Below are positions 13,765 to 47,257 of a stretch of 47,893 nucleotides of DNA, one piece after another (the stretch's first letter is position 1; the number at the start of each line of letters is the position of its first letter). The notes beneath the pieces were generated by a model. It was given only the letters and a program-made list of their open reading frames with translations, had not been told where the DNA came from and made no database searches. Both the position numbers and the translations under genes were made by a program. This DNA comes from Streptomyces albus subsp. albus (GTDB lineage: Bacteria; Actinomycetota; Actinomycetes; Streptomycetales; Streptomycetaceae). The DNA lies in the NCBI RefSeq assembly GCF_000719865.1, contig NZ_JOID01000037.1:1-47893 (forward strand), read 5' to 3'.

Positions 13765-14092
13765 CCCGGCACCCCCCGGCACCGCGCAGGACCACCCACA
13801 CCCCCAACACAGGCACCATCACCGACCACGCCACCCCGACGGAGCCGCCCCACACCGGCCACCCGAAGCACTGACCCCCGGCACCGCGCAGGGCGGACGC
13901 CCGCCTCCAGCCCAGGCACCATCACCAACCACCCGGCGGAGCCGACCCCCGCCGACCGCCCGGAGCACCGACCCCGGCACCGCGCAGGGCCACCCCCGCC
14001 CCGGGCACAGGCACCGTCACTGACCGCGCCACCCCGGCGGAGCCGACCCGCGTCGCCCCTCCGGAGCACTGACCCGCCGCACCGCCGCGCGT
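13754..14092. repeat. Imperfect tandem repeat of about 100 bp starting at the cbiD stop codon
   Basis: The motif CGGAGC(G/A)C(T/C)GACCC, which includes the cbiD TGA, recurs at 13762, 13872, 13969 and 14070 (positions of the TGA or its CGA equivalent), giving periods of 110, 97 and 101 bp. Each unit also shares GGCACCGCGCAGG, CACAGGCACC(A/G)TCAC and CGGCGGAGCCG blocks in the same order. The units are diverged but clearly homologous. The tract fills most of the cbiD-cobM convergent gap. Confidence 0.85.
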
Positions 14093-14291
14093 CGTACGCA
14101 CCCGCGTCCCGGCCCGCCGCACGGGGCGGGCACCCGTTCCGGCCACCCCCGCGCACGCGTGCACCGCATACTCCGGGAGGACGGTCACCGACCCGCCCGC
14201 ACCCGCCAACCGGCGGCAAGGCCACGTCCGGGGGCAACGGCCCGCACCGGCCACCCCGCACCCGCCCGCCCCGCGCACCCGGGGCGGACCG
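14093..14291. other. Remainder of the cbiD-cobM gap
   Basis: Cytosine-rich sequence with short CGCACC(C/G) and CACCCGC repeats; no gene or clear hairpin seen. It is the 3' flank of cobM. Confidence 0.4.
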
Positions 14292-15092: not shown

Positions 15093-15294
15093 CGTTCTAC
15101 TCCTCGGTCCGGCCTCCCGGCCGGCGTGTGGTGTGCCACAGTGCGCTCTGCCGGCGCGTGGCCCGCGGGCGCGTGTCCCGTCGGCGCGGGCGCTGTTGAC
15201 GTTCGGTCCGTCCGCGCACTGCCGACGGCTCGGACCGTCCGCGCGCCGCCGGTGTTCGTCCCCCGGCGTGGTCTGGGCGTGCCGTCCGCCCGCG

Positions 15295-19041: not shown

Positions 19042-19454
19042 CGATGCATCAGATGAAGAGCCCGGTCGGCCGCGACTGGATGGTGGCGGACGTCGCCTCC
19101 GTGTCCGGCGTACGGCATGTGGTGGTGCTCAGCACCGACGGTCTGCTGATGGCCCGTTCGGAGGGGACCGGCAGGGACAGCGCCGACCGGCTCGCGGCAG
19201 CCTGCTCCGGGCTGCAGTCCCTGGCCAAGGGCCTCGGCCGGGAGTTCGGCACCGGCAGCAAGGCCGTGATACAGCAGATGGTCGAGTTCGACGGCGGCTT
19301 CCTCTTCATGGTCGCCGCCGGGCAGGGCTCGTATCTGGCCGTCGTCACCGACGTCGCGGTCGACCCGCAGCTGATCGCCCAGCAGATGCGCATCCAGGTC
19401 AACCGCATCGGCAGCCATCTGTCCAGCCCGCCGCGGCAAGGCGCCGTCTCGTGA
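19038..19454 (+). CDS. cvnB: Roadblock/LC7-domain protein (CvnB)
   Basis: 138 residues, a single roadblock/LC7 domain (GRDWMVADVASVSGVRH; VVVLSTDGLLMARSEG; VIQQMVEFDGGFLFMVAAG; LAVVTDVAVDPQLIAQQM). In conservons this protein regulates the neighbouring GTPase. GTG 19038 is preferred over ATG 19044: it overlaps the cvnA stop (GTGA) and lies 8 nt after AAGGAC. Its stop overlaps the next start by GTGA. Confidence 0.93.
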   Translation: MTMHQMKSPVGRDWMVADVASVSGVRHVVVLSTDGLLMARSEGTGRDSADRLAAACSGLQSLAKGLGREFGTGSKAVIQQMVEFDGGFLFMVAAGQGSYLAVVTDVAVDPQLIAQQMRIQVNRIGSHLSSPPRQGAVS

Positions 19455-19813
19455 CCGCCCCCGGGGAGTATCTGGACACCCCCCTGCGGCCCTATGTGCT
19501 CACCGGCGGACGGGCCCGGCCCAGCCGCAACACCGTCGCCCTCGACACCCTGCTCGTCGCCTCCGCCCGGGAGGAGGACCTGCCCGTCTCCGCCAGCCGC
19601 CAGGAGCGTGCCCTGGTACGGATGTGCGGCCGGCTGCTGTCCCTGGCGGAGGCCGCGGCGCACCTCGGGCTGCCGGTGAGCACGGTCACCGTCCTCGCCT
19701 CGGACCTGGTCGACTCCGGCCACCTCACCGCGCGCACCGGTGTCCCCCCGGCCGCCCGCACCGACCGCGATCTGCTCCAGGAGGTGCTCGATGGTCTCCG
19801 CCGGCTCCGCTGA
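19451..19813 (+). CDS. cvnC: DUF742 protein (CvnC)
   Basis: 120 residues. RPYVLTGGRARPS and a winged-helix-like stretch (LLSLAEAAAHLGLPVSTVTV, then LASDLVDSGHL) are diagnostic of DUF742, the third conservon component. The GTG start overlaps the cvnB stop by four bases; the 3' end overlaps the cvnD start by 23 bp. Confidence 0.94.
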   Translation: MTAPGEYLDTPLRPYVLTGGRARPSRNTVALDTLLVASAREEDLPVSASRQERALVRMCGRLLSLAEAAAHLGLPVSTVTVLASDLVDSGHLTARTGVPPAARTDRDLLQEVLDGLRRLR

Positions 19814-20432
19814 CCCCGGCCTCGCCACGCGCCGCGCCCTCCCGCCCGGCGAGCGGTATCTGCCCGACACCGTGGAACGGGCGGTGAAGCTCCTCGTGGT
19901 CGGCGCCTTCGGCGTCGGCAAGACCACCCTGATCGGCTCGGTCAGCGAGATCGCGCCGCTGCGCACCGAGGAGGTCATGACGGAGGAGAGCGCCGGCGTC
20001 GACGACCTCGCCGGGCTGGCGGGCAAGACCACCACGACCGTGGCGATGGACTTCGGCCGCATCACCCTCAATCCGGGTCTCGTCCTCTACCTCTTCGGCA
20101 CCCCCGGCCAGCGGAGGTTCTGGGATCTGTGGGAAGGGCTGGCCGAGGGGGCGCTGGGGGTCCTGGTGATGGTCGACACCCGCCGCCTGGAGGACAGCTT
20201 CGAGGTGCTGGAGCAACTGGAGGTGCGCGGCCTGCCGTTCGCCGTGGCGGTCAACCACTTCCCCGACACCCCCCGGCACCACACCGTGGAGGATCTGCGC
20301 CGCGCCCTCGATCTGCTGGACGAGACGCCCGTCGTGATGTGCGACGCCCGCCTGCGCCCCGCCTCCCGCGACGCCCTGATCACCCTGGTGGAGTTCGTCT
20401 CCGCCACCGCCGCACAGGAGGTGCCCCGATGA
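19791..20432 (+). CDS. cvnD: Conservon small GTPase (CvnD, Ras-like ATP/GTP-binding)
   Basis: 213 residues. P-loop GAFGVGKTTLIGS; switch region with TTTTVAMDFGRI; G3-like LFGTPGQRRFWDLWEGLAEG; NHFP as the G4-equivalent. It is the nucleotide switch of the conservon complex. ATG 19791 is chosen because GGAGG (19779-19783) is well placed inside the end of cvnC and the domain follows. Its stop lies in ATGA with the P450 start, so the P450 is very likely co-translated. Confidence 0.94.
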   Translation: MVSAGSADPGLATRRALPPGERYLPDTVERAVKLLVVGAFGVGKTTLIGSVSEIAPLRTEEVMTEESAGVDDLAGLAGKTTTTVAMDFGRITLNPGLVLYLFGTPGQRRFWDLWEGLAEGALGVLVMVDTRRLEDSFEVLEQLEVRGLPFAVAVNHFPDTPRHHTVEDLRRALDLLDETPVVMCDARLRPASRDALITLVEFVSATAAQEVPR

Positions 20433-22324
20433 CCGCCCCCGCCCCGCCCCCCGGCTGCCCGGCCCACGGGACCACCACCGGTCTGACGCCGCTGGTGTCC
20501 GCGGCCGGCGCCGACGCCCGCCGCGTCTACGAACGGCTGCGCGCCGAGTGGGGCAGCGTCGCCCGCATCGAGCTGGAGCCCGGCGTGCCCGGCTGGCTCG
20601 TCCTCGGCTACCGCGAAGTGCTCACCGTCACCCGGCAGGAGAAGACCTTCTCCCGCGACGCCCGGCACTGGCGCGACCTCAACGACGGGGTCGTGCGGCC
20701 CGATTCGGCGCTGCTGCCGATGATGGCGCACCGCGACAACGTCATCGGCCACGACGGCACCGAGCACCAGCGGCTGCGCCGCCCCCTCGTGGACGCCGTG
20801 GCCGGTGCCGACCAGCGGCGGATGCGCCGCTCCGTGGAAGCGGTGTGCGCGGGGCTGCTCGAGGCGTTCTCGGGGCGCGGCACCGCCGACCTGGTGTCCG
20901 AGTACGCCAGGGTGGTGCCGCTGCTGGCCATCGGCGGCCTGTTCGGTCTGGAGCAGACGCAGGCGGGCGAACTGCTGCGCGCCCGCGCGGCCCTGCTGGG
21001 AGACGGCGGCCGGCCGCGGCCCGGCGGCCTCCGCTTCGAGGAGATCCTCTCCGCCGTGCTCCGTGACCGCCGCGCGCACCCCGGGAACGATCTCACCTCG
21101 GCCTTCCTCGCGCACCCCGACCTCCGGGACGATGCCGAGGTGCTGCGCTCCGTGATCGTCATGATCTCGGCGGGCAACGAGACGACGACCGCGTGGATCG
21201 CCAATACCCTCCGGCTGATGCTGACCGACGAGCGCTTCCGCGGCCGGCTGCACGGCGGACGGCTCGGCGTCGACGAGGCGCTCGACGAGGTCCTCTGGCA
21301 GGACCCGCCGATGGCCAACTTCCCCGCCCGCTACGCGCTCCACGACACGGAGCTCGGCGGCCGGACGATCCGCTGCGGGGACGTGCTGGTGCTCGGCCTG
21401 GCCGCCGCCAACGCGGATCCGGCCGTGCGCCCGTCCGACCCGTACGACATGCTCGGCAACCGGGCGCACCTCGCCTTCTCCTCCGGCGCGCACGCCTGCC
21501 CGGCGCAGGTGCCCGCCCGGCTGATCGCCAAGACGGCCGTGGAGACGGCGCTGCGGGGACTGCCCGAGGTCAGCCTGTCGGTGCCCGACGAGGAGCTGCC
21601 CTGGCGGGCCTCCCCGTGGACGCACTGCCCGGCCTCCCTCCCGGTGCGCTTCGCCCCGGTGGACACGGGGCGGACGGCGTCCCGGAGCGGGACCGGGGCC
21701 GTTCCGGACCGGCCCGGAGCCTCCTCCGGAGCGGCCGGGCGGGGCTGGGCTTCCCCGGGCGGTGCCTCGCCGCACGGGGCCTCGCCGGGGACGGCTTCTT
21801 CCGTGGCGGCTGCCGGCGAGGCTTCGCCGGCGGACATGCCCCCCGCTTCCCCGGTGGCGGAATCGCTGCCCGGAGCGCCTCCTCCGGGCGCCCGCTCCTC
21901 GGGCGCACCCTCGCCGGGGCTGTCTCCGGCGGGCCTCCCTCCGGCGGGGGCTTTCCCGGCGGACTCCTTCCCCGGCACAGTCCCGTCCGGCAGGGCTCCC
22001 TCGGCGCCGGACCGCCCCGCTGGAGCAGGTGCCTGCGGTGCACCGACCGGTCCCACGGCCCCCGATCCGTACGGGCAGCCGACCGGGGCGGGGGAATCGA
22101 CCGCAGGGGGGTCCGTCCCGCCCGCGGCTCCGGCCCCGCCGGCGGCCCGGCTGCCCGCGGCTCGGCCGGCGGCGGCTCCGGTGCGGTCCGCCGCGCCGGG
22201 AGCGCCCGTCGGCAGGGTCCCCGCTCCCCCGCGCATCGGGGCCGTCCTCGCCCCCCGGCCCGCTCCGGCCGCCCCCGCCCCGGCGGCCCTCCGACCGGAA
22301 CCACCCGGCTTCACCGCTCCGTGA
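20429..22324 (+). CDS. Conservon cytochrome P450, CYP157-like, without ExxR
   Basis: 631 residues; the P450 fold ends near 410. The I-helix motif is SAGNETTT (about 246-253). The heme loop is FSSGAHACPAQVPARL with C357 as thiolate ligand. In the K-helix the usual ExxR reads EVLW (E287...W290), so the otherwise near-invariant Arg is Trp; CYP157 enzymes of streptomycete conservons are known for this loss. The ERR-triad partner region (PANFPARYA type) is partly kept. After residue 410 comes an Ala/Gly/Pro/Ser tail of about 220 residues with GC-rich repeats (SPGGASPHGASPGTAS). Substrate is unknown. ATG overlaps the GTPase stop. Confidence 0.93.
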   Translation: MTAPAPPPGCPAHGTTTGLTPLVSAAGADARRVYERLRAEWGSVARIELEPGVPGWLVLGYREVLTVTRQEKTFSRDARHWRDLNDGVVRPDSALLPMMAHRDNVIGHDGTEHQRLRRPLVDAVAGADQRRMRRSVEAVCAGLLEAFSGRGTADLVSEYARVVPLLAIGGLFGLEQTQAGELLRARAALLGDGGRPRPGGLRFEEILSAVLRDRRAHPGNDLTSAFLAHPDLRDDAEVLRSVIVMISAGNETTTAWIANTLRLMLTDERFRGRLHGGRLGVDEALDEVLWQDPPMANFPARYALHDTELGGRTIRCGDVLVLGLAAANADPAVRPSDPYDMLGNRAHLAFSSGAHACPAQVPARLIAKTAVETALRGLPEVSLSVPDEELPWRASPWTHCPASLPVRFAPVDTGRTASRSGTGAVPDRPGASSGAAGRGWASPGGASPHGASPGTASSVAAAGEASPADMPPASPVAESLPGAPPPGARSSGAPSPGLSPAGLPPAGAFPADSFPGTVPSGRAPSAPDRPAGAGACGAPTGPTAPDPYGQPTGAGESTAGGSVPPAAPAPPAARLPAARPAAAPVRSAAPGAPVGRVPAPPRIGAVLAPRPAPAAPAPAALRPEPPGFTAP

Positions 22325-29165: not shown

Positions 29166-29975
29166 ATGACGGATCAGAGTGCCGCTCCTGCGGGCATCGA
29201 CACCAGCGTCGCCCACTCCGCCCGGATGTACGACTACTGGCTGGGAGGCAGCAGCAACTTCGAGGCCGACCGGGAACTGGGCAAGGCGGTCGAGGCGGCC
29301 ATCCCGAGCATCCGGACCATGGCCCGGGAGAACCGCAGGTTTCTGGGCCGCGCCATCCGCGTGATGGCCGAGGAAGGGGGCGTCCGCCAGTTCCTCGACA
29401 TCGGGACCGGTGTACCGGCCGCCGGTGACACCCCTTCCGTCACGGAGATCGTCGCGCCCGACAGCCGCGTCGTCTGCGTCGACAACGACCCGATCGTGCA
29501 GGCCCACGCCAAGGCCCTCATGGAGAAGTCGCCCGGGGGGAGGACTCGTTACGTCCAGGCCGACCTGCGGAAGCCGGACGAGCTGCTGGCGCGGCCCGAG
29601 GTGGCCGGGCATCTGGACTTCGAACGGCCGGTCGGGCTGCTGCTGGTGGCGGTGCTGATGCTGCTCAAGGACCAGGACCGCCCCTGGGCCACGGTCGCCG
29701 CCCTGCTCGACGCCATGCCGCCGGGCAGCCATGTCGCCATCACCCACCCCACGCCGGACTTCAACCCGGAGGCGATGTCCGACGTCGTCGAGGCCGCCAC
29801 CCGAGGCCATATGACGCTGGTGCCGCGCACCCGGGCGCAGATCTCGGAGTTCTTCGGCGACTGGGAGCTGCTGGAGCCGGGCCTGGTGCCGGTCATGGGA
29901 TGGCGCCCGGAGGAGGCCCCGGCCGACCCGAGGGCGGCGTACTACTGGAGCGGTGTCGCCCGGAAGAAGGGCTGA
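29166..29975 (+). CDS. DUF574-family SAM-dependent methyltransferase
   Basis: 269 residues. The start (IDTSVAHSARMYDYWLGGSS) and the NF.ADRELG stretch are the hallmark of this actinobacterial family; FLDIGTGVPAAGDTPSV is the SAM-binding loop and VVCVDNDPIVQAHAKAL the acidic strand. The family is greatly expanded in Streptomyces; some members are linked to developmental regulator BldD targets, others are uncharacterised. ATG at 29166, preceded by a weak GAAG purine run. Substrate unknown. Confidence 0.93.
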   Translation: MTDQSAAPAGIDTSVAHSARMYDYWLGGSSNFEADRELGKAVEAAIPSIRTMARENRRFLGRAIRVMAEEGGVRQFLDIGTGVPAAGDTPSVTEIVAPDSRVVCVDNDPIVQAHAKALMEKSPGGRTRYVQADLRKPDELLARPEVAGHLDFERPVGLLLVAVLMLLKDQDRPWATVAALLDAMPPGSHVAITHPTPDFNPEAMSDVVEAATRGHMTLVPRTRAQISEFFGDWELLEPGLVPVMGWRPEEAPADPRAAYYWSGVARKKG

Positions 29976-34430: not shown

Positions 34431-34859
34431 ATGAGGAACCGCGTGAAAGCGGCGTTAACCGGAACCCTGGTGCTGGCGGCCGCGGCCCTCGGCCCGCTGG
34501 GCGGCACCGCGCACGCCGGAGAGTCCTCGCTCTACGCTCCCTCGGACCTCGTCCTCACCCTCGCGCACGGAGAGGACGCCTCCTCCGTCGCCCCGGAACG
34601 CGCGGTGACCCTCTCCTGTGAGCCGCAGGCCAGGGGCACGCATCCCTCCCCGCAGGAAGCCTGCGTGCTCCTCGGGGCAGCCGGGGGAGATGTGGACGCG
34701 ATCGCGCCGCCGGCCGAACCCGAACTGTGCACGTACCAGTACGACCCGGTCGTCGTGACCGTGCGGGGCGTCTGGCAGGGCCAGCGCATCGACGAGGAGC
34801 GCACCTTCGGCAACGAGTGCGTGATGCGGGCCGAGACCGGAGCCGTCTTCGACTTCTGA
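34431..34859 (+). CDS. ssi: Streptomyces subtilisin inhibitor (SSI) family protease inhibitor
   Basis: 142 residues with a 29-residue signal peptide ending AHA. The mature part follows SSI closely: SLYAPSDLVLTLAHGE, SVAPERAVTLSCEP, GTHPSPQEAC, GVWQGQRIDEERTFGNEC and the closing AVFDF. The four cysteines (C63, C78, C100, C130) match the two SSI disulfides. In the reactive loop C100-T-Y-Q-Y-D-P, aligned with CPM-VYDP of SSI, P1 is Tyr102, favouring subtilisin/chymotrypsin-like targets over trypsin. SSI is a secreted homodimer. GGAAGGA precedes the ATG at good spacing. A large S8 protease is encoded 9 kb away. Confidence 0.97.
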   Translation: MRNRVKAALTGTLVLAAAALGPLGGTAHAGESSLYAPSDLVLTLAHGEDASSVAPERAVTLSCEPQARGTHPSPQEACVLLGAAGGDVDAIAPPAEPELCTYQYDPVVVTVRGVWQGQRIDEERTFGNECVMRAETGAVFDF

Positions 34860-36167: not shown

Positions 36168-39100
36168 TCACTGGATCTGGCGGCGGACCAGCTCGTGGAA
36201 GAGGCCGGTGGTGTCGGCGAGCAGCTCCGCGGGGCGGCCCTGCTGCACCACGCGGCCCTCCGCCATGACGACGACCCGGTCGGCGTCCATGACGGTGGAG
36301 AGCCGGTGGGCGATGACGACGCGGCTGGCGTTGAGTTCGCGGGTGCTCTCCGTGACGATGCGCTGGGTCTCGTTGTCCAGCGCGCTGGTCGCCTCGTCGA
36401 AGAAGAGAATCCGGGGCCGGCGGATCAGGGCCTGGGAGATCATCAGCCGCTGCCGCTGCCCGCCGGAGACGGTGCCGCCGCCGTCGGAGAGCACGGTGTG
36501 CATGCCCATCGGCATCCGCTGGATGTCCTCGGCGAGCCCGGCGAGCCGGGCGGCCTCCCACGCCTCCTCCAGGGAGAAGTTCTCGGCGCCGCGGATGCAG
36601 TCGAGGATCGAGCCGGAGAACGGCTGCGCGTTCTGCAGGACGACACCGCACTGCCGGCGGACGGCGGCCTGGTCGAGGGCGGCCAGGTCCTGGCCGTCGA
36701 AGAGGACCTCGCCGGAGGCGGGCCGGTCGAAACCGATGAGCAGCCGCAGCAGTGTGGACTTGCCGCAGCCGCTCGCGCCGACGACGGCGACGAACTCGCC
36801 CGGCTCCACCCGAAAGGAGACGTCGTCCAGGACGAGCGGCCCGTCCTCGGTGTAGCGGAAGGAGAGCTGCCGGGCCTCGATGGCGCCGGAGAGCTCCCCG
36901 GGCCGGGTCGAGCCGCCGCGGACCTCGGGCAGCTCCCGGAAGACCGGCCGGACCTGTTCGAACATCGGCAGCACGGCGGCGGCGGAGATCAGCGCGCCGG
37001 TCAGCTGGGTGACCGAGCTGAGCATCATCGTCACGGCCGTGTTGAAGGTGAGGAAACCGCTCGGGGAGAGGGCGCCGCGGGCCGGCCCGGCGAGCAGCAT
37101 GAACATGACGAGGGTGCAGAGCGGCAGGTAGACCGCGTTGAGGACGGTGATGAGGTTCTTGATCCGGCCGACGCGCTGCTGGAGTTCGCGGCTGCGGGCG
37201 AACTCGCGCGCCCAGGCCGCGTAAGCGAAGCTCTCGGCGGCGGCGACGCGCAGCTTGGGGAGCCCGCGCAGGGTCTGGAACGCCTGGTTGTTCAGCTTGT
37301 TGCCGAGCACGACCAGCCGCCGCTGCCAGCGCAGCTGCCACAGCCCCAGGCCGAGGAAGAGCGCGGCGATGACGAGGAGCATGGCGACGGCCACCAGCGC
37401 CAGCTGGACGCTGAACAGCAGCAGGAGCACGAGGTTGACGGCACCGACCGTGCCGGCCTGGACGAGCACCGTGCTGATCCCGGACAGCACCTTGCGGATG
37501 GAGCTGATGCCCATCGCCGCGCTCGCCAGCTCGCCGGTGGAGCGCTGGGCGAAGAAGCGGGTCGGCAGCCGCAGCAGCCGGTCCCAGACGGCGGGTTGCA
37601 GGGTGGCCTCGACGCGGCCCTCCATGCGGAGGATGGCGGTGTTCTGCAGCAGCATGAACGCGGCGGCGACCACCGCGGTGACGATCAGCGCCAGGGAGAC
37701 CTGGACGATCAGGCCGGTCTCGGCGGCCGGGACGTACACGCCGAGGACCTGTCCGGTGGCGATCGGCACCAGCGCGCCCAGGCCCACGGCGACGAGGCCG
37801 CCCAGCGCCAGGTGGCGCAGGTCGGCGCGGGTGCCGCGGAGGCTGAAGAGCAGCAGCCGCCAGGCGGGCAGGGGCTCGTCGGGCAGCGGCCGGTAGAACA
37901 TGACGGCGCGCTCGTCGAACTCGGCGGCGTTGTCCTTGCCGACGCGCCACCGCTCGCCGCTCGCCGGGTCCACGGCCTCGTAGCGGCCGCGCCGCCACAG
38001 CAGCGCCACCGGCTCGCCGTCCTCGGACCAGTAGCCCACGAGGGGGCCGGAGTTGTCGCGCCACCAGCTCCCGGTGAGGCGGACGTCGCGGGTGCGGAAG
38101 CCGGAGCTGAGCGCGACGCGTTCCACGGGATCGAGCCTGCCGCCGGACGCCCCGCCGGTGTCGGGGTCGGTCACGGGGATGCGGGCCGCCGCGGCGACCT
38201 TGCGGCAGACGGCGAGGGCGGCGTCGTCGGTGCCGGCGGCCGTGCCGGACGGGGCTCCGCGGCGGCGCGGCCGGCCGATGGAGTTCAGCAGCGCCTGGTC
38301 CGCGCGTTCCCGTTCGGCCTCGCCGGCCTGGATGCCGGCGGCGGTGCGGTCCTCGTGGGCGCGCTCCAGCCGTTCGATCCAGCGGTCCAGGGCGGACAGC
38401 AGGCGGGTCTGCTGGTTGACCATGTCCTGCCACAGCGCACCGTCGATGAGCAGGTCGGCGGCGGTGTCCGCGCCGTAGGCGGAGCCGTACTGGACGCTGC
38501 CGGGGGCCATGGACATCCACAGGATGTTCTCGTCGCCGGTCCCGGCGGCGTCGTTCGCGGCGCTCGCCCCGAGGCCGTCGTCCGGGGCGTCCTCGTCGGA
38601 GGGGCCTCGGGTCAGGTGCTGGCCGTCGAAGGGGGCTTCGAAGAGGACGCGGAGGCTGCGTCCGTAGCCGCGGGCGAAGGCGTCGTCCAGAGGGGTGAGG
38701 ACCGGTTCGTGGGCCGGGTGCGTCCACGGGGTGCCGTACGGGTCGGGCGCGCCGTACGGGCCGCCGCCCTGCCCGCCGTACGGGTCGGCGTACGGGTCCG
38801 GGTACGCCTCGCCATGTGCGCCGCCGGACAGCGGGTCGTGCCCGCCGTACCGCTCGTACTGGTCGTAGTGCTCGCCGGGGTGTCCGTACTGGCCGTAACC
38901 GCCGTAGGGGCTGTACGGGTCGTGCGCCGCGTACGGTTCCGGCCCGGGGCGGTGCAGCTCGCGGAGCTGGATGCGGCGCAGCGCGCAGTCCTGGAGCGGC
39001 CGGCCGACGAGGGTGTGGCGCGGGCCCTCGACGGGTCCGAGCAGCAGGGTGCCGGTCTCCAGCCGGCCGAGGAAGTGCCAGTGGCCCTGCCGGCCGGCGT

Positions 39101-39485
39101 CGACGGCGAAGAGGTCCATGGCCCCGGCGGTGACCAGCCACAGCACCTGCGGGCCTTCGAGGCCGAGGCTGCGGGCGGCGGTGCGGTCGACGGGGGTGCC
39201 GAGGCCGCCCAGGGCGGCGACGACCACGTCGGCGGAGGAGGCGGCGGCCGCCGGGCCGGCTGCGGGTGTCCCGGGGGCCGCCCCGTAGGCGTCGCCGGTC
39301 CCGTAGTCACCGGTCCCGTAGTCACCGTTCGCGTAGTCACCGGCCGCGTACCCGTCGCCGGTCCCGTACGCGTCGGCGCCGTAGCCGCCGGTTCCGGCGG
39401 TGCCGGGGACGGGGGCCGGGACGGCGCCGGTGGTGGTGAGGGCGGAGCCCTCGGAGGAGGAGTGGGAGGGGTGGGGGGATGACAT
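36168..39485 (-). CDS. NHLP/NHLM-type peptide export ABC transporter, second permease/ATPase
   Basis: 1105 residues. The C-terminal half is an ABC exporter: membrane helices at about 540-830 and an ATPase with Walker A GASGCGKST (about 902), signature VSGGQRQRL (about 1007) and Walker B ILFFDEATSALD (about 1028). The N-terminal half has no peptidase domain. It contains a first Tyr/Gly/Asp-rich tract (about 35-75), a segment LWLVTAGAMDLFAVDAGRQG characteristic of this subfamily, and a second Tyr/Gly/Pro tract (about 190-265). It probably works as a heterodimer with the next gene upstream. The ATG is one base after that gene's TGA. Confidence 0.93.
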   Translation of the reverse strand: MSSPHPSHSSSEGSALTTTGAVPAPVPGTAGTGGYGADAYGTGDGYAAGDYANGDYGTGDYGTGDAYGAAPGTPAAGPAAAASSADVVVAALGGLGTPVDRTAARSLGLEGPQVLWLVTAGAMDLFAVDAGRQGHWHFLGRLETGTLLLGPVEGPRHTLVGRPLQDCALRRIQLRELHRPGPEPYAAHDPYSPYGGYGQYGHPGEHYDQYERYGGHDPLSGGAHGEAYPDPYADPYGGQGGGPYGAPDPYGTPWTHPAHEPVLTPLDDAFARGYGRSLRVLFEAPFDGQHLTRGPSDEDAPDDGLGASAANDAAGTGDENILWMSMAPGSVQYGSAYGADTAADLLIDGALWQDMVNQQTRLLSALDRWIERLERAHEDRTAAGIQAGEAERERADQALLNSIGRPRRRGAPSGTAAGTDDAALAVCRKVAAAARIPVTDPDTGGASGGRLDPVERVALSSGFRTRDVRLTGSWWRDNSGPLVGYWSEDGEPVALLWRRGRYEAVDPASGERWRVGKDNAAEFDERAVMFYRPLPDEPLPAWRLLLFSLRGTRADLRHLALGGLVAVGLGALVPIATGQVLGVYVPAAETGLIVQVSLALIVTAVVAAAFMLLQNTAILRMEGRVEATLQPAVWDRLLRLPTRFFAQRSTGELASAAMGISSIRKVLSGISTVLVQAGTVGAVNLVLLLLFSVQLALVAVAMLLVIAALFLGLGLWQLRWQRRLVVLGNKLNNQAFQTLRGLPKLRVAAAESFAYAAWAREFARSRELQQRVGRIKNLITVLNAVYLPLCTLVMFMLLAGPARGALSPSGFLTFNTAVTMMLSSVTQLTGALISAAAVLPMFEQVRPVFRELPEVRGGSTRPGELSGAIEARQLSFRYTEDGPLVLDDVSFRVEPGEFVAVVGASGCGKSTLLRLLIGFDRPASGEVLFDGQDLAALDQAAVRRQCGVVLQNAQPFSGSILDCIRGAENFSLEEAWEAARLAGLAEDIQRMPMGMHTVLSDGGGTVSGGQRQRLMISQALIRRPRILFFDEATSALDNETQRIVTESTRELNASRVVIAHRLSTVMDADRVVVMAEGRVVQQGRPAELLADTTGLFHELVRRQIQ

Positions 39486-39486
39486 G

Positions 39487-41979
39487 TCAGTGCTCCCTGA
39501 CCAGGGCGGCGTAGGCCCCGCCGGCGGCGGCCAGCTCCTCGTGCCGGCCGCGCTCCACGACGGTGCCGCGGTCGAGGACGACGATCTCGTCGCTGTCCCG
39601 CACGGTGCTCAGCCGGTGCGCGATGACGACGCAGGCGCAGCCGCGCCGCCGCAGATTGTCGATGATGACCTGTTCGGTCTCGGCGTCGAGGGCGCTGGTC
39701 ACCTCGTCGAGGACGAGGACGCTGGGGCGGCGGACGAGCGCGCGGGCGATCTCCAGCCGCTGCCGCTGCCCGCCGGAGAAGTTGCGGCCGTCCTGCTCGA
39801 CGCGGCTGTGGATGCCGCCGGGGCGGCGGGCGACGATGTCGTACACCGCGGCGTCCTTGAGCGCCGCGACGACGGCCTCCTCCGGGATGGAGGGGTCCCA
39901 GAGGGCCACGTTGTCGCGGACGGTCCCCTCGAAGAGGAAGACGTCCTGGTCGACGAAGGAGACGGAGGCGGACAGCGCGCTGCGCGGGATCTCGTCCAGC
40001 CGCCGCCCGTCGATGCGGATGACGCCCTCCCACGGCCGGTAGAGGCCGGAGATCAGCCGGGAGACGGTGGACTTGCCGCTGCCGGAGCCGCCGACGAGGG
40101 CGACCTGGCGGCCCGGTCCGACGTCGAGCGAGAAGCCGCTCAGCAGCGGCTTGTCGAGCGGGCTGTAGCCGAAGGTGACGTTCTCCAGGGTGACGTGGCC
40201 GCGCAGCCGCTTGGTGCTGGCGGGCGGTTCGCGCCGGGTGTAGAGGGTGTCGGCGGGGAAGCTCTCGACGTCCTTGAGGCGGGCCACGTCGGCCGCGAAG
40301 TCCTGGAGCCGGCCGGCGACGCCGTTGAGCCGGGTGAGGGGGGCGGTGAAGTTGGTGACCAGGGCCTGGAAGGCGACGAGCAGGCCGATGGAGACGGCGC
40401 CCTCCACGGCCCGCTGCCCGCCGATGAGGAGGATCAGCGCGCTGTTGAGGGTGGCGAGGGTGGGGGCGACGACGGCCAGGAAGGCGCTGGGCACGCCGAG
40501 CCGCTGCTGGGTGTCGAGGGTGGTGGCGTGCTGCCCGGCCCAGCGACGGAACCAGCCGTTCTCGCCGCCGGTGGCCTTCATGGTCTCGATCAGCTGGAGG
40601 CCGCTGTACGAGGTGTTGGTGAGCCGGGCGCTGTCGGCGCGCAGTTTCTGGGTGCCGACGGAGCGCAGATGCATCACGACGCGCAGGGCGACCACGTTGA
40701 GCAGGGCGATGCCGATGCCGACGACCGTGAGCTGCGGGTCGTAGGCCCACAGCAGGACGGCGTAGAGCACCACGACGACCACGTCGACGCCGGCGGCGGC
40801 GAGGTCCCGGGCCAGGGTTTCGGCGACGGTGTCGTTGGACTGCAGCCGCTGGACGAGGTCGGCCGGGTTGCGCTGGGAGTAGAAGGTGACCGGCAGCCGG
40901 AGGAGGTGGCGCAGGAAGCGGGCGCTGCTGAGGGTGGAGGAGATGATGCGCCCGCGCAGCAGGTTGGCCTGCTGCAGTCCGGTGAGGACGGCGGTGAGGA
41001 CCACCATCGTGCCCATGGCGGCGAAGAGGACCCCGAGCAGCGAGGTCTGCTCCCCGAAAAGGAACATGTCGATATAGGTACGACTGAGGGCGGGGACGGT
41101 GGCACCGACGAGGACGAGCAGGAAGCTCGCGGTGAGCGCGGCCAGCAGGGTGCCGCTGGTGCCGCGGAGCCGGACGGGCATGGCGCCGAGGACGCCCGGC
41201 CTGCGGCCGCCGCGGCGGAACCGCTCGCCGGGTTCGAAGACGAGGACGACGCCGGTGAAGCTGGTGTCGAAGTCCTCCATGGAGACGTAACGGCGGCCGC
41301 GGGCCGGGTCGTTGATGCGGACCATGCGGCGGCCGAAGCGGCGCACCGTCCCCTCGTAGACCACGTAGTGGTTGAACTCCCAGAAGAGGATGGCCGGGGC
41401 CCGCACCTCGGCGAGGGCCGCGGGCTCCATCTGCATGCCCTTGGCGTCGAGGCCGTAACTCCGGGCCGCCTTCAGGAGGTTGCTGGCACGGGAGCCGTCG
41501 CGGGACACGCCGCAGGCGATGCGCAGCTCCTCCAGGGGGACGTGCTTGCCGTGGTGGCCGAGCACCATGGCCAGGGAGGCGGCGCCGCACTCCACGGCCT
41601 CCATCTGGAGGACGACGGGGCTGCGGACGCTCTTGGGCGCGCGCGTCCGCTGCTTCTTCCCGGCGCCCCGGGGCTGCCTGCGGTCCCCGCCGCCGCGTCC
41701 CCGCGGCGGCGCCGCTCGGCGGGCGCGGTCCGCGCGGCGGCGGCCGTCGGCGGCCGGGCGGCGCCGGCCATGGCCGGGGAGCCGGTCCCCGGGGGCGGGG
41801 CCGGTGGCCGTCTCGCCGGAGGACCGGGGGGACGGGGCGGCGGGCGCGGCCTGCGCGGCGGGCGCCGGCTCCTGGCCGGGGGCGGGTGTCCCGGCGGGTG
41901 TCCCGGCGGTCGGTGCGGGAAGGGGCTCGGCGGGGGCCGGCGGTCCGGCCGCCGGTCCGGTCTCGTACGGGGTGTTCAC
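39487..41979 (-). CDS. NHLP/NHLM-type C39 peptidase / ABC transporter
   Basis: 830 residues. Residues about 120-245 are a C39 peptidase (VVLQMEAVECGAASLAMVLG with C131; H204 in EFNHYVVYEG; D224 in INDPARG) that cleaves after double-glycine leaders. Membrane helices span about 280-560. The ATPase has Walker A GGSGSGKST (about 630), signature FSGGQRQRL (about 730) and Walker B VLVLDEVTSALD (about 750). About 115 disordered Pro/Ala/Arg residues precede the peptidase, unusual for the family. The start overlaps the adaptor stop (ATGA); the stop is one base from the second ABC gene. It should process and export the peptide encoded at 43014-43220. Confidence 0.95.
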   Translation of the reverse strand: MNTPYETGPAAGPPAPAEPLPAPTAGTPAGTPAPGQEPAPAAQAAPAAPSPRSSGETATGPAPGDRLPGHGRRRPAADGRRRADRARRAAPPRGRGGGDRRQPRGAGKKQRTRAPKSVRSPVVLQMEAVECGAASLAMVLGHHGKHVPLEELRIACGVSRDGSRASNLLKAARSYGLDAKGMQMEPAALAEVRAPAILFWEFNHYVVYEGTVRRFGRRMVRINDPARGRRYVSMEDFDTSFTGVVLVFEPGERFRRGGRRPGVLGAMPVRLRGTSGTLLAALTASFLLVLVGATVPALSRTYIDMFLFGEQTSLLGVLFAAMGTMVVLTAVLTGLQQANLLRGRIISSTLSSARFLRHLLRLPVTFYSQRNPADLVQRLQSNDTVAETLARDLAAAGVDVVVVVLYAVLLWAYDPQLTVVGIGIALLNVVALRVVMHLRSVGTQKLRADSARLTNTSYSGLQLIETMKATGGENGWFRRWAGQHATTLDTQQRLGVPSAFLAVVAPTLATLNSALILLIGGQRAVEGAVSIGLLVAFQALVTNFTAPLTRLNGVAGRLQDFAADVARLKDVESFPADTLYTRREPPASTKRLRGHVTLENVTFGYSPLDKPLLSGFSLDVGPGRQVALVGGSGSGKSTVSRLISGLYRPWEGVIRIDGRRLDEIPRSALSASVSFVDQDVFLFEGTVRDNVALWDPSIPEEAVVAALKDAAVYDIVARRPGGIHSRVEQDGRNFSGGQRQRLEIARALVRRPSVLVLDEVTSALDAETEQVIIDNLRRRGCACVVIAHRLSTVRDSDEIVVLDRGTVVERGRHEELAAAGGAYAALVREH

Positions 41980-42782
41980 GGCAGCAGCCAGTCGATGGGA
42001 CGCTCGGCGGTGAGATGGATGGCACCGCTCACGGGGGTGGTGGACTCGATCCGGAACGGCGGGCCGTCCTTCCGCGACCAGGCGTAGCCGGACGGGGTTC
42101 CGGCGGACCGCTCCAGCTCGACGAGGACGGCCACGGCCGGCCCGTCGGCGGAGAACCGCTCGGCCAGTTCGGCGCTGCCGAGGAAGCCCGCGATGCGCTG
42201 CGCGGTCTGCGGCACCCGGCCGACGGTCTTGACGCGCCCCTTCAGCACACCGAACTGCTGCGCGGGCGCGGACTGGACGGTGAGGTCGACGCGGGCGCCC
42301 ACCGGCACGGGTGAGCCCTTGCCGCCGGGGACGTAGAGCATGGCCACCAGCGGCTCATCGGGATCCTTGACGCGTTCGACGGTCGCCACCTGCGCGCCTG
42401 GGGTGATGACCGAGCCGGTCTCGGCGACGAGCGAGGTGACCCGGCCCGCCTCCAGGGTGCGGACGGCGCGGGTGCCCTGCTCCGTACTGACGGCCAGCAC
42501 GGGGGCCTTGGCGGGGAGGCTGTCGCCCTCGCGGGCGAGGACCTCGGTCACCTGTCCGGCGAAGGGACTCTGCAGGACGTAGCTGCCCCCGGCGCGGGTG
42601 AGGACTCCGGGCGATTCCAGCCGGGACGACACCGAGCCGGTCACGGCCCAGAAGGCGGCCCCCGCCATCACGAGGAGCGTGATCACGAGCACGAGCAGGC
42701 CCTGGGGCCGTGCGAAGCGCACCGGGATGTCCAGCTCCTCGGGTGACTGCAGCTTGGACAGCGCCTTCTGGCGGAACTGCAC
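41976..42782 (-). CDS. HlyD-like membrane fusion protein of the NHLM peptide export system
   Basis: 268 residues. The start (MQFRQKALSKLQSPEELDIP) is typical of the NHLM secretion adaptor. One membrane helix lies at about 28-50 (LLVLVITLLVMAGAAFW). The biotinyl-lipoyl-like halves (SPFAGQVTEVLAREGDSLPA; GRVTSLVAETGSVITPGAQV) follow, then VGARVDLTVQSAPAQQFGV. There is no long coiled-coil hairpin, as expected without an outer membrane. First gene of the export operon, overlapping the peptidase-ABC gene by 4 bp. Confidence 0.92.
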   Translation of the reverse strand: MQFRQKALSKLQSPEELDIPVRFARPQGLLVLVITLLVMAGAAFWAVTGSVSSRLESPGVLTRAGGSYVLQSPFAGQVTEVLAREGDSLPAKAPVLAVSTEQGTRAVRTLEAGRVTSLVAETGSVITPGAQVATVERVKDPDEPLVAMLYVPGGKGSPVPVGARVDLTVQSAPAQQFGVLKGRVKTVGRVPQTAQRIAGFLGSAELAERFSADGPAVAVLVELERSAGTPSGYAWSRKDGPPFRIESTTPVSGAIHLTAERPIDWLLP

Positions 42783-42899
42783 GGTCTTTCATCCCTCGCC
42801 TGCGACGACGCCGGACGTTCCGACGCGATGGCGCACGACCGTAACATGGCCGCCGAGCTGCGGAGATGGCAGCCGGAGGCCGCCCGGCCGACAGCATGC

Positions 42900-42932
42900 A
42901 TGGGCCCCGGAAAGGGGAATTCCGGGGCCCAT
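42900..42932 (-). terminator. Hairpin between precursor gene and export operon
   Basis: ATGGGCCCCGGA and TCCGGGGCCCAT form a perfect 12-bp stem with a 9-nt loop, in the 231-bp space between the peptide gene and the adaptor gene. It could let the abundant peptide message end here while some transcription reads on into the transporter genes. It is symmetric, so it could act on either strand. Confidence 0.7.
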
Positions 42933-43013
42933 GGTCAACCCTTTCCGGTCTCAGCCAAACCGGGGGGTTGTGAAACGCTCCGGCCGGTCAGGGCCGGACA
43001 GCGGACGTCCGGA

Positions 43014-43220
43014 TCAGAGACCCGCGACGAGGCCGGTGACCTGGCTGGTGGGCAGGCCGGTGACGTCCTGCACGAGACCCAGGCCCTCGGAGAGCGGGGC
43101 GACGGAGTCGACGGCGCCCAGAACCGGGGCGACGTTGACGCCGATGCCGCCGGACACGGCGTCCAGGGCGGCGTCGTCGATCTCGCGGGTCTCGACCTGG
43201 GGGGTGAAGTCGTTGCGCAC
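43014..43220 (-). CDS. Double-glycine leader peptide, Cys-free, probable substrate of the NHLM exporter
   Basis: 68 residues. The leader (about 1-25) ends EIDDAALDAVSGG, matching double-glycine leaders cut by C39 peptidases. The predicted 43-residue core starts IGVNVAPVLGAVDSVAP and ends VTGLPTSQVTGLVAGL. It has no Cys, Lys, Arg or aromatic residue, only three acidic residues, and is rich in Val, Leu, Gly and Ala. Without Cys it cannot be a lanthipeptide, even if homologues carry such labels. GTG at 43220 follows GAAGGGAAG. It lies just upstream of the export operon, separated by a hairpin. No tailoring enzyme is nearby. Function unknown; an unmodified surface-active or signalling peptide is possible. 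Confidence 0.85.
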   Translation of the reverse strand: MRNDFTPQVETREIDDAALDAVSGGIGVNVAPVLGAVDSVAPLSEGLGLVQDVTGLPTSQVTGLVAGL

Positions 43221-43810
43221 TTGGGCTTCCCTTCGATTTCTGCTGGGTATTTCTGCATCGCACCGGCCGGTTCAAGGGGGACGAAAACCGACCGATTTGA
43301 TGGGGCGTCAAGCTGCCCCTCAACCCGGGAACCATTTTTCAACAGCTTCCGCGTACCGCCAGATGAAAGCACGTCACGCGGTCGGCGGGCCAGCCGCGGC
43401 GGCCGTCGCCCCGGGCCCGCCGGCGGGGAAGCGCCGCAGGTCGGGCACGGCATGGTGACGGCTTCTTCACAAGGTCCACTGTCCGGTCACCCGCCCCGGG
43501 CAGTCCGGCGGTACCAAACCGGACTGAACGCCTCCGGTGGGGGCGGGGATTCGGGGAAAACCGTTTCCACACTCCGTCCTGTGCCGCTTCTGCGAAAACG
43601 ATGTGCAGGACCGGCCGAATGCGACATGGCCCGACAAGAGAACCCGCGAAGGAAGCCCGGGAGCGCCGCTTTTCCCTGCCGCGCCGTTTGTATCGGGCAT
43701 GTCCGGTGGGCCCCGCATTACCTGCGGTATGCGGCAAGCGGCCCTTTCCGCCGATTGGTCACGGCCTTCCGGTACGGGAACCCGCCGCGGCCGCGCTCCC
43801 CCGCCCGCCG
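43221..43810. promoter_or_regulatory. Promoter region of the peptide gene and 3' flank of the S8 protease gene
   Basis: 590 bp, GC lower than its surroundings near 43221-43380 and 43500-43700. On the minus strand TTGAAC, 17 bp, GAAATA (about 43272-43244) is a weak promoter candidate before the peptide gene; TTGACG occurs further upstream. An interrupted inverted repeat TTGATGGGGC...GCCCCTCAA lies at about 43297-43323. No second peptide gene was recognised. Confidence 0.4.
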
Positions 43811-46800
43811 CTACCGGGTGCGGTAGGCGTCGAGGATCGTCTGGGTCAGCGCGTGGCCGGCACCGCCGGTGACCTCCGCCCTGAGGGACACGCCCGTTCC
43901 GGGCTCCGCGGGGTTGCGGACCTTCACCACACCGTCACGGACCGGGAGTTCCGTCCAGGTCCGGCCGCCGTCGAAGGAGGCGTGAACGGTGAGCGGGCCG
44001 GCCCCGTCCCCCGCCGCGGAGCCCTGCACCGTCACGGGGATCTCCGTGACCGTACCGGCGGGGGCGGTGGAGTCGGGGGCGAGCCCCGGGGTGAAGCGGA
44101 CCGCCGAGGCCGGCAGCCGTACCCGCTCCCCCTCCCCCGCCGCCTCCGAGGTGAACGTCCAGGAGGAGGTGACCTCGCGGGAGACGGTGGCGGGGCCGCG
44201 GCGGGCGACGGTGGTGACGAGCCGGTAGTCCGCCTTCTCCGGCGGCAGGGTGAACTGGGCGCGGTCGAGGATGTCCTCGGCCGTGGCGTAGGGCTCGCCG
44301 TTCCGGTAGAGCGTCGTGGAGGCGGTGTCGTAGAGGCTCTCGCCGCGGTGCCCCGCGCCGTCGGCCAGGGGGTTGATCCGGCCGGAGAGGGTGTCGCCCC
44401 GCCGGAAGAGACCGTCCTCCGCAGCCCCGTCCCCGCCGCCGGGCCCGTCTCCGTCTCCGCCCAGCAAGGGGCCGAAGACCCCGGTGTTGTACGTGTGCTC
44501 GTAAGCCTCGCCCGCCGTGTACGCGGCCCGCTGCGGGCCGGCGTAGACCGCCTCCCGCTCCTCCCCGCGCATCTGCTCGAACCGGTGCGACCAGCGCACG
44601 CCCTCGGTGTTGAGGTACTGCGTGAAGGTGCCGGGGAGGTCCCGGAGGTGGGCCACGGTCCAGCCGAATCCGATGTCGCCGGTGTCCGGTTCGGTGATCA
44701 CCGCGCCCTGCCGCCCCGCCGCCGACGCTCCTTGATGGATCGTCAGCTGCGCGAGCTCCTCGGACGCGACGTCCTTGCGGAAGCCGGTGAAGAGGCCGCC
44801 CTCCCGCCCGTACGCGACCCGGTACTCGGTGTCGGGGCCGCTGCGGAAGCTGCCGACCGTCTTGGCGTGCATCCGCCCGTCCGGCAGCTCGGGGCCGACG
44901 TGCCGGGTGCGGAAGCCGAGTGGCAGCGGCGGGCGCACCAGCCAGACGCTGCCGATGGTGCGGCCGTCCACGGTGGCGTCGAACGACATGGCGGCGTCGG
45001 CGAGTTCGGCCTCCGGGTCCGGCACGGTGATCTCGACCGGCTCGGCCTTCCGCGCGTCGAAGGTGAGGGTGGTGTCCGCGGTGAGGTCCAGCCTCGGCTG
45101 GAGCTGCCAGTCGAGTCCGGCCGCGTCGCCGTCACCGCCGTCACCGCCGGCGAGGACGATCTGGTGGCTCACGAGATAGGTGCCCTCCGGCAGCCGGACG
45201 GTGGCGGTGCCGCCGGTGCCCGAGGTGCCGGTGAAGCCGCCGCGCTCGTAGTCGTAGACGATGGCGGCCCAGTCGGCGGGGGCGGCGCCGTCCCGGCCCA
45301 CGGTGTTCACCGTGAGGTCGTACGACTCCTCCTCGCGGGTCACGGCGCCCGCCGTGCGGACGGACTGGCCGCCTCCGCTCGCCGTGACCACCACCTCGAA
45401 GTCCCCGTAGCGGTCGCCGCCCGGCCGGGTGTCGGCGGTCAGCCCGGTGGAGACGGTGCCGCCCGCGGGGACGGTGATCCGCTCGGCGTCCGGGACGAAC
45501 ATGCCCTCGGGGGCCGGCTCGCCGTCCGGGCCGGTGGCCTCCACGGACAGCGTGAGCGTGAGGTCCTCCTCCCCCAGGTTCCGGTGGACGAGGTCCCGGG
45601 TGACGGGTTCGTCGTCGGTGTGCGGCCAGCGCGGTGCGCCGAAGTCCAGGGAGGAGGCCCCCGCGACGAGGGTCTGCCCGGTGGCCCGGCCCGCGTCCAT
45701 CCGGCCGCTCCCCTTCTCGAAGACGCTCCGGCTCTCCCCCGCCGCGGCCGAGCCGGTCAGGGCCGCCTTGATCCGCTCACCGTTCCAGTCCGGGTGCCGC
45801 TCCGCCAGCAGGGCGGCCGCGCCCGCGGCGTGCGGGGTGGCCATCGACGTCCCCGACAGCGAGCCGTAGCCGTCGGCGACCGGGCCGGCCTCCCCCGCCA
45901 GCACGCTGCCCTCGGCGAGCGCGGCCCCGATCCCGGTGCCCGGGGCCGTCAGGTCGGGCTTCAGCCCGCCGTCCCCGGTGCGCGGGCCGACGGAGGAGAA
46001 GCCGGCGAGCCGGTCCTCGCGGTCGACGGCGCCGACGGTGAGCGCCGCCTCCGCGCTGCCCGGGGAACTGATGGAGCCCGGGCGGGGGCCCGCGTTGCCC
46101 GCGGCGGCCACGAACAGGGGGCCGCTCCCGGCCGAGAGCCGGTTCACGGCCTCCTCCATCGGCCCCACCCCGGGGGCGTCACCCGCGCCGACGCTGAGGT
46201 TGACGACATCGGCGCCCCGGTCGACGGCCCACTCCATACCCGCGATCACGTCCGACTCGCGGCCGCTGTTGTCGTCCCCGATCACCTTGGCGTTCAGCAG
46301 CCGCGCGGCGGGCGCCACACCCCGGTACGCGCCGCCGGACGCGGCGCCCGTCCCCGCCGCGATGGACGCCACGTGGGTGCCGTGGCCGTACCGGTCGGTG
46401 GTATCGGGGGACGCGGAGAAGTTCTTCGCCGCGGCGACCTTGGGGCCGGCCAGATCGGGGTGCGTGGTGTCGATGCCGGAGTCCAGGACGGCGATCGTGA
46501 CGCCCTCGCCCTCCAGTCCGGCCTCCCAGGCGGCGGGGGCGCCGATCTGCCGGACGCTGCGGTCGAGTTCGGCCCGGACCAGGCCGTCGAGCCAGAGGGA
46601 GGCCACCCCGGGCGCGGTGGTGCGCCGACCGCCCTCGCCGGAGGCGCGGGTGAGCGCGGCCCAGGCCGCGGCGGTGTCCCCGGGCCCGGCGGCCACGGCG
46701 TCGGCGCCGATGCTGCGCAGCGGGCGGACGCCGGCGTCCCCGGCGGCGGCGCGCAGCCGGCGCCCGGCGGCCGGGACGTCCTCCTCCGGGCCGTCCCGCT

Positions 46801-47257
46801 CCGGGCCGCTCTCCTCGTAGCGGACGATGAAGGGGAGGGTGTCGCCGTGCAGGGCGCGGAAGGCGGGCCGGCTCAGCTCGGTGACGTCGAACAGCCTGCG
46901 GTCCACGGTGCCGTCGAGGACGAGGGCGGTCGCGTCCTGGGGGATGACGTGCGTGTGGCCGTCGCCGTCGCGCAGCGCCTGGACGGGTATGTGCTCGCGG
47001 CCCTCGGCGGGGAGCACAGCGGTGACGCGTCCGGCGCCGTCCAGGCGGACCCGGTCGCCGGTGACGAGCGTGACGAGCCCCGCCCCCCCGGCCGCGGCGA
47101 AGGGGGCGGGTGCCGCGGCGGTCGGTGAGGTGACGGCGGGTGCCGCGATGGCCGGCGACGCGGTGGCCGGTGGGGCCGCGGCCGGGAGCAGCGCGGCGGT
47201 GACGGCCGCGGCCAGCGCGGCGAGTGCTCTCCGGGTGCGGATGGCGCGGATGGGCAC
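43811..47257 (-). CDS. Secreted subtilisin-like serine protease (S8 family)
   Basis: 1148 residues. Signal peptide about 1-34, a propeptide-like segment to about 230, and an S8 catalytic domain with D259 (VLDSGID), H292 (YGHGTHVAS), oxyanion N388 (AAAGNAG) and S471 (GTSMATPHAAG). The C-terminal 650 residues are beta-rich domains of the kind found in large Streptomyces S8 proteases, with GTYLVSHQIVLAGG and a final VHASFDGGRTWTELPV. The GTG at 47257 follows AGGGGGA. No sorting or anchor signal is seen at the C-terminus (DAYRTR). It is upstream of the peptide export module on the same strand, but with a 590-bp gap. Confidence 0.95.
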   Translation of the reverse strand: MPIRAIRTRRALAALAAAVTAALLPAAAPPATASPAIAAPAVTSPTAAAPAPFAAAGGAGLVTLVTGDRVRLDGAGRVTAVLPAEGREHIPVQALRDGDGHTHVIPQDATALVLDGTVDRRLFDVTELSRPAFRALHGDTLPFIVRYEESGPERDGPEEDVPAAGRRLRAAAGDAGVRPLRSIGADAVAAGPGDTAAAWAALTRASGEGGRRTTAPGVASLWLDGLVRAELDRSVRQIGAPAAWEAGLEGEGVTIAVLDSGIDTTHPDLAGPKVAAAKNFSASPDTTDRYGHGTHVASIAAGTGAASGGAYRGVAPAARLLNAKVIGDDNSGRESDVIAGMEWAVDRGADVVNLSVGAGDAPGVGPMEEAVNRLSAGSGPLFVAAAGNAGPRPGSISSPGSAEAALTVGAVDREDRLAGFSSVGPRTGDGGLKPDLTAPGTGIGAALAEGSVLAGEAGPVADGYGSLSGTSMATPHAAGAAALLAERHPDWNGERIKAALTGSAAAGESRSVFEKGSGRMDAGRATGQTLVAGASSLDFGAPRWPHTDDEPVTRDLVHRNLGEEDLTLTLSVEATGPDGEPAPEGMFVPDAERITVPAGGTVSTGLTADTRPGGDRYGDFEVVVTASGGGQSVRTAGAVTREEESYDLTVNTVGRDGAAPADWAAIVYDYERGGFTGTSGTGGTATVRLPEGTYLVSHQIVLAGGDGGDGDAAGLDWQLQPRLDLTADTTLTFDARKAEPVEITVPDPEAELADAAMSFDATVDGRTIGSVWLVRPPLPLGFRTRHVGPELPDGRMHAKTVGSFRSGPDTEYRVAYGREGGLFTGFRKDVASEELAQLTIHQGASAAGRQGAVITEPDTGDIGFGWTVAHLRDLPGTFTQYLNTEGVRWSHRFEQMRGEEREAVYAGPQRAAYTAGEAYEHTYNTGVFGPLLGGDGDGPGGGDGAAEDGLFRRGDTLSGRINPLADGAGHRGESLYDTASTTLYRNGEPYATAEDILDRAQFTLPPEKADYRLVTTVARRGPATVSREVTSSWTFTSEAAGEGERVRLPASAVRFTPGLAPDSTAPAGTVTEIPVTVQGSAAGDGAGPLTVHASFDGGRTWTELPVRDGVVKVRNPAEPGTGVSLRAEVTGGAGHALTQTILDAYRTR

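Follow-up and report, generated by a model that had tools for sequence, protein, structure and literature searches.

The closest described relative of the locus studied here is SCO0753-SCO0756 of Streptomyces coelicolor, reported in 2019 as a conserved, Cys-free hydrophobic peptide encoded with an exporter, whose induction goes with dispersed growth and for which a role at the hyphal surface was suggested (PMC6629963). It shares with our locus the four-gene arrangement and a Cys-free hydrophobic peptide of the double-glycine type and is in effect the same cassette, but neither unlinked leader-sharing peptides nor a common promoter motif is reported in the accessible part of that account. The central inference of the original prediction had already been published there, where export pairing was proposed, the lack of Cys was pointed out and a place at the hyphal surface was considered (PMC6629963). 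The cassette itself is known, and what is new here relative to that work are the genome-wide counts of pairing and gene order, the scattered partner peptides and the candidate common promoter. NHLM exporters have been described with modified-peptide precursors (PMC2887384); the NHLP and N11P systems of that description, with their TIGR03794/03796/03797 cassette, resemble the present one in exporter type, conserved leader, variable core and paralogous expansion, whereas the leader found here is short, matches no NHLP or Nif11 model and has no recognised tailoring enzyme linked to it. In pneumococci, the C39 exporters ComAB, BlpAB and RtgAB similarly serve several double-glycine peptides, some of them from other loci; that network differs in comprising bacteriocins with immunity genes, in that some of its peptides are signals, and in having exporters that are not of the NHLM three-gene type (PMC7595303). 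Cyanobacterial bacteriocin clusters also combine a C39-ABC, HlyD and sometimes a second ABC gene with highly diverse double-glycine precursors, and encode lanthionine machinery in only a few cases (PMC3140520). They differ from the Streptomyces cassette in phylum and in cluster make-up, and the accessible part of that report gives no promoter evidence.

The window, the whole stretch of 47,893 nucleotides from Streptomyces albus subsp. albus that was analysed, carries the cassette on its minus strand (ORFs were called with an in-house codon-score caller, minimum 30 aa). A double-glycine peptide precursor of the SCO0753 type is encoded at 43014..43220 (minus strand, 68 aa, GTG start), with a leader running to AVSGG and a 43-aa Cys-free core; upstream alignments place a conserved ribosome-binding region, CGAAGGGAA, at 43227..43235 on the same strand. 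Downstream, and also on the minus strand, follow genes for an HlyD-like adaptor of 268 aa (41976..42782), a C39 peptidase-ABC exporter (ABC1, 39487..41979) and a second ABC exporter subunit with a long N-terminal region (ABC2, 36168..39485). ORF calls and model matches bear out the set first proposed, a 68-aa AVSGG-leader peptide with HlyD, C39-ABC and ABC genes on one strand. The proposed NHLM type holds for both ABC proteins, which exceed the model cut-offs (ABC1, TIGR03796, 1004.5 bits against 853.3; ABC2, TIGR03797, 885.8 bits against 709.4), but not for HlyD, which at 153.3 bits lies 2.9 bits below the TIGR03794 cut-off of 156.2 and is clearly related but short. Candidate catalytic residues of the C39 domain are Q125, C131, H204 and D224, and 4ry2 ('ABC-type bacteriocin transporter') and ComA (8hf4) are among the solved relatives that align across almost the full chain. 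The ABC2 protein of the window, 1105 aa long, has a low-complexity stretch rich in Tyr and Gly in its N-terminal part; open frames are ~980-1000 aa in many relatives. The peptide itself matched no NCBIfam and no Pfam family at E<=0.1, so neither the nitrile-hydratase-like nor the Nif11-like leader model applies. Our reading, to which we assign a probability of roughly 0.7, is that a one-exporter, many-precursor regulon is centred on this locus, and that the core peptide of the window is most likely unmodified and would act at membranes or hyphal surfaces.

Double-glycine leaders usually carry Ile/Leu at -12, Ser at -11, Glu/Asp at -8, Leu at -7 and Val at -4, and, judged by its residues, the leader of the window peptide fits this pattern, with Asp at -11 and Ala at -8 where the family consensus has Ser and Asp/Glu. 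A similar pattern is described in PMC2887384. C, K, R, F, W and Y are all missing from the window core, which has a mass of 4085, a pI of 4.05 and a GRAVY value of 1.0. Across 41 cassette cores, Cys was lacking and net charge was 0 or negative in every one, Lys/Arg were lacking in 34 and aromatics in 37, and the Cys-free, non-cationic character noted for the window core extends to the cassette cores. Hydrophobic periodicity in the 41 cores was strongest at 100-110 degrees, where z reached 12 to 15 relative to shuffled cores (the cores are homologues and hence not independent), and showed no beta peak at 160-180 degrees. No core position was conserved at 90% across A6. An AlphaFold model, of low confidence (pLDDT 64, pTM 0.25), contained helices and no strands. 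An amyloid or beta-rich core is unsupported because the periodicity is alpha-helical and carries no beta signal, and the idea that the peptide is self-assembling, taken in the amyloid sense, is likewise not supported.

From 314 relatives, the best 80 were taken as named loci, which include records of Kitasatospora, Streptacidiphilus and Actinacidiphila. All 80 kept the order peptide-HlyD-ABC1-ABC2, gave a tblastn match to HlyD and retained the four candidate catalytic residues (Q, C, H, D) of the C39 domain. We then compared peptide and pump across 199 Streptomyces genomes. The peptide was matched in 144 (144 again with two broader profiles) and ABC2 exceeded its cut-off in 143; 141 genomes had both, three (G001, G119 and G145) had the peptide and a partial ABC2 that scored under its cut-off, two had a full-scoring ABC2 without the peptide (G120 and G188) and 53 had neither, among them the single-contig, 100% complete genomes G005, G012 and G031. 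The expectation that the peptide ORF is conserved in Streptomyces was borne out, as was its constant company with these three transporter genes, given that 141/144 carriers had ABC2 above the cut-off and the other three a partial match below it. Among 394 genomes sampled across the class, the profile matched 32, 31 in Streptomyces and a weak one outside the genus (G508, E 3.8e-5). Raw pN/pS, calculated as simple proportions from small, related sets, was below 1 in both leader and core of all five cassette-peptide groups (core 0.38 to 0.99), with the leader below the core in each. With 49 homologues at E<=1, matches in 144/199 genomes and raw pN/pS below 1 (0.99 in one core group), the peptide ORF is, by the measure of its sequence record, not a chance ORF. 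One homologue (NZ_CP108841.1:891569-891778) sits on a replicon of Streptomyces chartreusis, 1.16 Mb in size, that is recorded as a plasmid; as a single match, it was not taken as plasmid-borne spread. At the G145 cassette, two leader-sharing peptides occur in tandem (L062:4645-5491).

SapB (RamS), an exported peptide of Streptomyces that is small and amphiphilic, belongs to the lanthipeptides, and its formation by a synthetase draws on Cys. SapB is cited in PMC6629963, and the proposal made there in 2019, that the cassette peptide is a SapB-like factor of the hyphal surface or of aggregation, is the alternative that survives best, though we hold it only tentatively. The core is hydrophobic and amphipathic, the cassette peptides are small and amphiphilic like SapB, with export predicted here, and induction accompanies dispersed growth in S. 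coelicolor (PMC6629963). However, the peptides have no Cys, unlike SapB, and the 53/199 Streptomyces genomes without the cassette, the complete G005, G012 and G031 included, count against such a factor. The same 53 genomes leave little weight to the earlier suggestion that the peptide is developmental, and a core developmental role is not favoured because presence is patchy and the unlinked cores described below evolve fast. A broader action at membranes or hyphal surfaces, as part of a one-exporter, many-precursor regulon, remains our preferred reading.

Peptides sharing the leader also occur away from the cassette. Two to five peptide matches were present in 64 of the 144 carriers (224 matches in all), and the genome of the window has one further peptide of 69 aa on a separate contig (G000:C8; E<=0.001), besides the weak further matches L003-L006 (E 0.38 or worse), L201 and L202 (E 0.42 and 0.96). 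We drew 20 unlinked loci (L015-L034) from the non-cassette matches among those listed, and named the peptide subtypes B1, B2, C and D by eye. No HlyD match was found in these 20 fetched loci, only two had a weak ABC match (<=82 bits), and no neighbour family was common to more than three of the 20; nor, among the first 25 of 90 families, did the nearest neighbours of 32 unlinked loci include a recurring tailoring family. Leader-sharing peptides were absent from every genome that lacks the pump (0/53), and this co-occurrence suggests that one pump may export the unlinked peptides. Within L015-L034, the B1 and B2 genes had raw pN/pS above 1 in the core and below 1 in the leader; the core values of 1.62 (10 B1 genes) and 1.12 (6 B2 genes), against 0.38-0.99 in the five cassette groups, hint at diversifying selection on the unlinked cores. 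These cores were also less uniform, with 18/20 lacking Cys, 6/20 lacking aromatics and 14/20 containing them, and no helical peak dominated in them (z was 4.2 at 110, 4.1 at 130 and 3.7 at 155 degrees). Since they lack such a peak and 14/20 carry aromatics, the unlinked peptides may act differently from the cassette ones. D-type unlinked peptides and L195 have a single Cys in the core (L029, L195-L198), unlike the cassette peptides.

Alignment of upstream regions revealed two shared boxes, TGTGAAG near -250 and GTGCTTTGATC near -140. Combined with a pattern search, the alignments place box 1 (TGTGAAG) of the window at 43465..43471 and box 2, GTGCTTTCATC, at 43362..43372, both on the minus strand. 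Between the boxes, TTGG-like and GTG-N10-CAC elements were seen by eye in many sequences, the latter degenerate in the window. The strict pattern TGTGAAG-N88..116-GTGCTTTSATC occurs exactly twice in the genome of the window, before this peptide (43362-43471) and before the unlinked peptide. Over the 199 genomes it gave 95 sites in 81 genomes, with 0 for the reversed control; all 81 are peptide carriers, and the 53 genomes without peptide and pump had 0 sites. Listed peptide matches lay downstream of 83/95 sites. As the pattern was derived from cassette and B loci, finding it there is no independent evidence, but the 12 left-over sites form an independent test, and all 12, when fetched, preceded additional peptides with the same leader, new core types among them. 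Spacing between the boxes was 101 bp in 75/95 sites and 98-102 bp in 93/95; the two outliers, the window at 92 and one other at 110, are each 9 bp off, close to one DNA turn. When one mismatch was tolerated at a constant spacing of 101, sites were found in 101 genomes, all of them carriers (control 0). The strict pattern is absent from 63/144 carriers and marks 14/80 extra peptides, and box 2 was found within one mismatch in 27/41 cassette and 11/20 unlinked upstream regions (L027, scored from a wrong start, is counted as a miss). The B2 subtype (L016-L019, L024 and L033) does not fit the pattern. The common upstream sequence may in part be a relic of gene duplication. Neither scattered double-glycine peptides in Streptomyces nor the common promoter was found in the main texts of the open-access literature searched.

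These observations suggest how the regulon might operate. The candidate bipartite promoter, whose pattern genome comparison places before the cassette and before some of the unlinked peptide genes, would turn on the four cassette genes together with, in many genomes, peptide genes elsewhere that encode the same leader. Its activator would be a regulator that we infer to be the SCO5282/5283 two-component system in S. coelicolor, and cassette and partner precursors would be made together. The C39 domain of ABC1, with its candidate residues intact in all named loci, would recognise the conserved leader and cut after Gly-Gly, and the ABC1/ABC2/HlyD complex, whose pairing with the peptide is conserved and without which the scattered peptides are absent, would export the cores. 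The 43-residue window core would most likely leave the cell without modification, consistent with the lack of a fixed linked tailoring enzyme, as an acidic, amphipathic alpha-helix that would act at membranes or hyphal surfaces. The system most likely works like the pneumococcal double-glycine peptide network, with one pump for several loci, by analogy and not as a member of that family (PMC7595303). More speculatively, it could represent an undescribed Streptomyces peptide secretome, in which a single pump of the NHLM type and a single dedicated promoter would serve both a conserved peptide forming an amphipathic helix and scattered peptides that share its leader and diverge fast; all would be unmodified and would make up a repertoire for the hyphal surface or for kin recognition. 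Should the unlinked peptides be co-exported, this very common genus of soil bacteria would possess a secretion system for several peptides. Cluster-based mining would miss the scattered peptides because their genes sit alone in the genome; the common leader, together with the promoter where present, can serve as a simple search rule for more exported peptides.

The fast divergence of the unlinked cores (raw pN/pS 1.62 and 1.12) and the patchy presence in 144/199 genomes would also be expected of bacteriocin-like or kin-discriminating peptides acting against or between related Streptomyces, the scattered genes being variable versions. We regard this as unlikely, although it is the next strongest alternative. 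A double-glycine leader with a C39 exporter recalls class II (unmodified) bacteriocins, and SCO0753 and SCO0756 are listed under bacteriocin in papers; against this, the cationic core of class II is lacking, the cores being acidic, no conserved neighbour that might confer immunity was seen among the called ORFs of 41 loci, and no activity was found in the accessible portion of the literature covered. Neighbouring genes were compared as called ORFs of at least 30 aa at these 41 loci, comprising the window and 40 fetched loci (L035-L074) hand-picked across the score range, 39 of which had the peptide and one of which, L074 (G188), was chosen as pump-only. The peptide was present in 40 of the 41 loci, called HlyD in 40 and the ABC genes in 41; L062 had no called HlyD in the clustering, but tblastn nevertheless matched HlyD in all 40 fetched loci. 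Beyond the four genes, no family occurred in more than 13/41 loci, and no neighbour was constant enough to be a linked immunity gene, the commonest extra being a SpoIIE/GAF/PAS phosphatase-like family (13/41, e.g. L035:3381-5540).

Homologues carry the database label 'type A2 lantipeptide', and on that view the peptide would be a RiPP precursor that an unlinked enzyme modifies before export. NHLM exporters were described with precursors of modified peptides (PMC2887384), and the single Cys of the D-type unlinked cores and L195 is compatible with it. We nevertheless consider a modified product improbable. As no Cys occurs in 41/41 cassette cores, these peptides cannot form lanthionine, and a lanthipeptide identity was rejected for them. 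No fixed neighbour gene was found, and the 90% conservation screen across A6 picked out no core position. Among 76 near neighbours of the cassettes, the commonest Pfam families were MFS, trypsin-like and GAF/SpoIIE, and NCBIfam returned mainly MFS efflux models; neither the first 25 of 98 Pfam families nor the first 25 of 364 NCBIfam families included LanM or a RiPP-modifying family, and the same held for the first 25 of 90 families beside unlinked loci. In the window, Pfam searches of the 25 other called genes recognised no enzyme of a known RiPP-modifying family and no LanM; a SAM methyltransferase family protein (29226-29975) is encoded 13 kb away and a P450 (20429-22324) 21 kb away. The earlier claim that no modification enzyme lies nearby is supported in the window as far as known RiPP-modifying families go, and in related loci no extra gene is fixed; a modifying enzyme may be rare or encoded at another locus. 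Neither 'type A2 lantipeptide' nor 'bacteriocin' fits the chemistry possible for this widespread Streptomyces family. The cores here, with 42-62 residues, are long for peptides that act as signals. That the peptides are pheromones sensed by a receptor is likewise improbable, for although pneumococcal double-glycine peptides include signals exported by shared pumps (PMC7595303), the cores here are hydrophobic and no sensor is linked to them, since no gene beyond the four is constant.

An S8 family protease of 1148 aa (43811..47257, minus strand), which the original prediction did not mention, lies upstream of the cassette on the same strand. It was rejected as a cassette member, since it adjoins the cassette in the window and in 2/80 named loci but in 0/40 further loci; the two named loci are those of Streptomyces sp. 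F63 (L105) and S. lycii (L107). Downstream lies a subtilisin inhibitor-like gene (SSI, 34431-34859, plus strand), whose family was present in 8/41 cassette loci. By Pfam, the other window genes comprise cobalamin enzymes, a row of histidine-kinase-like, roadblock, DUF742, ATPase and P450 genes, the subtilisin inhibitor, the S8 protease and others. The cobalamin region (880-16704) includes genes for a CobN-like chelatase, CbiC, CbiD, CbiJ and tetrapyrrole methylases. The row at 17386-22324, consisting of HATPase, roadblock/LC7, DUF742, ATP-binding and P450 genes, resembles a Streptomyces conservon.
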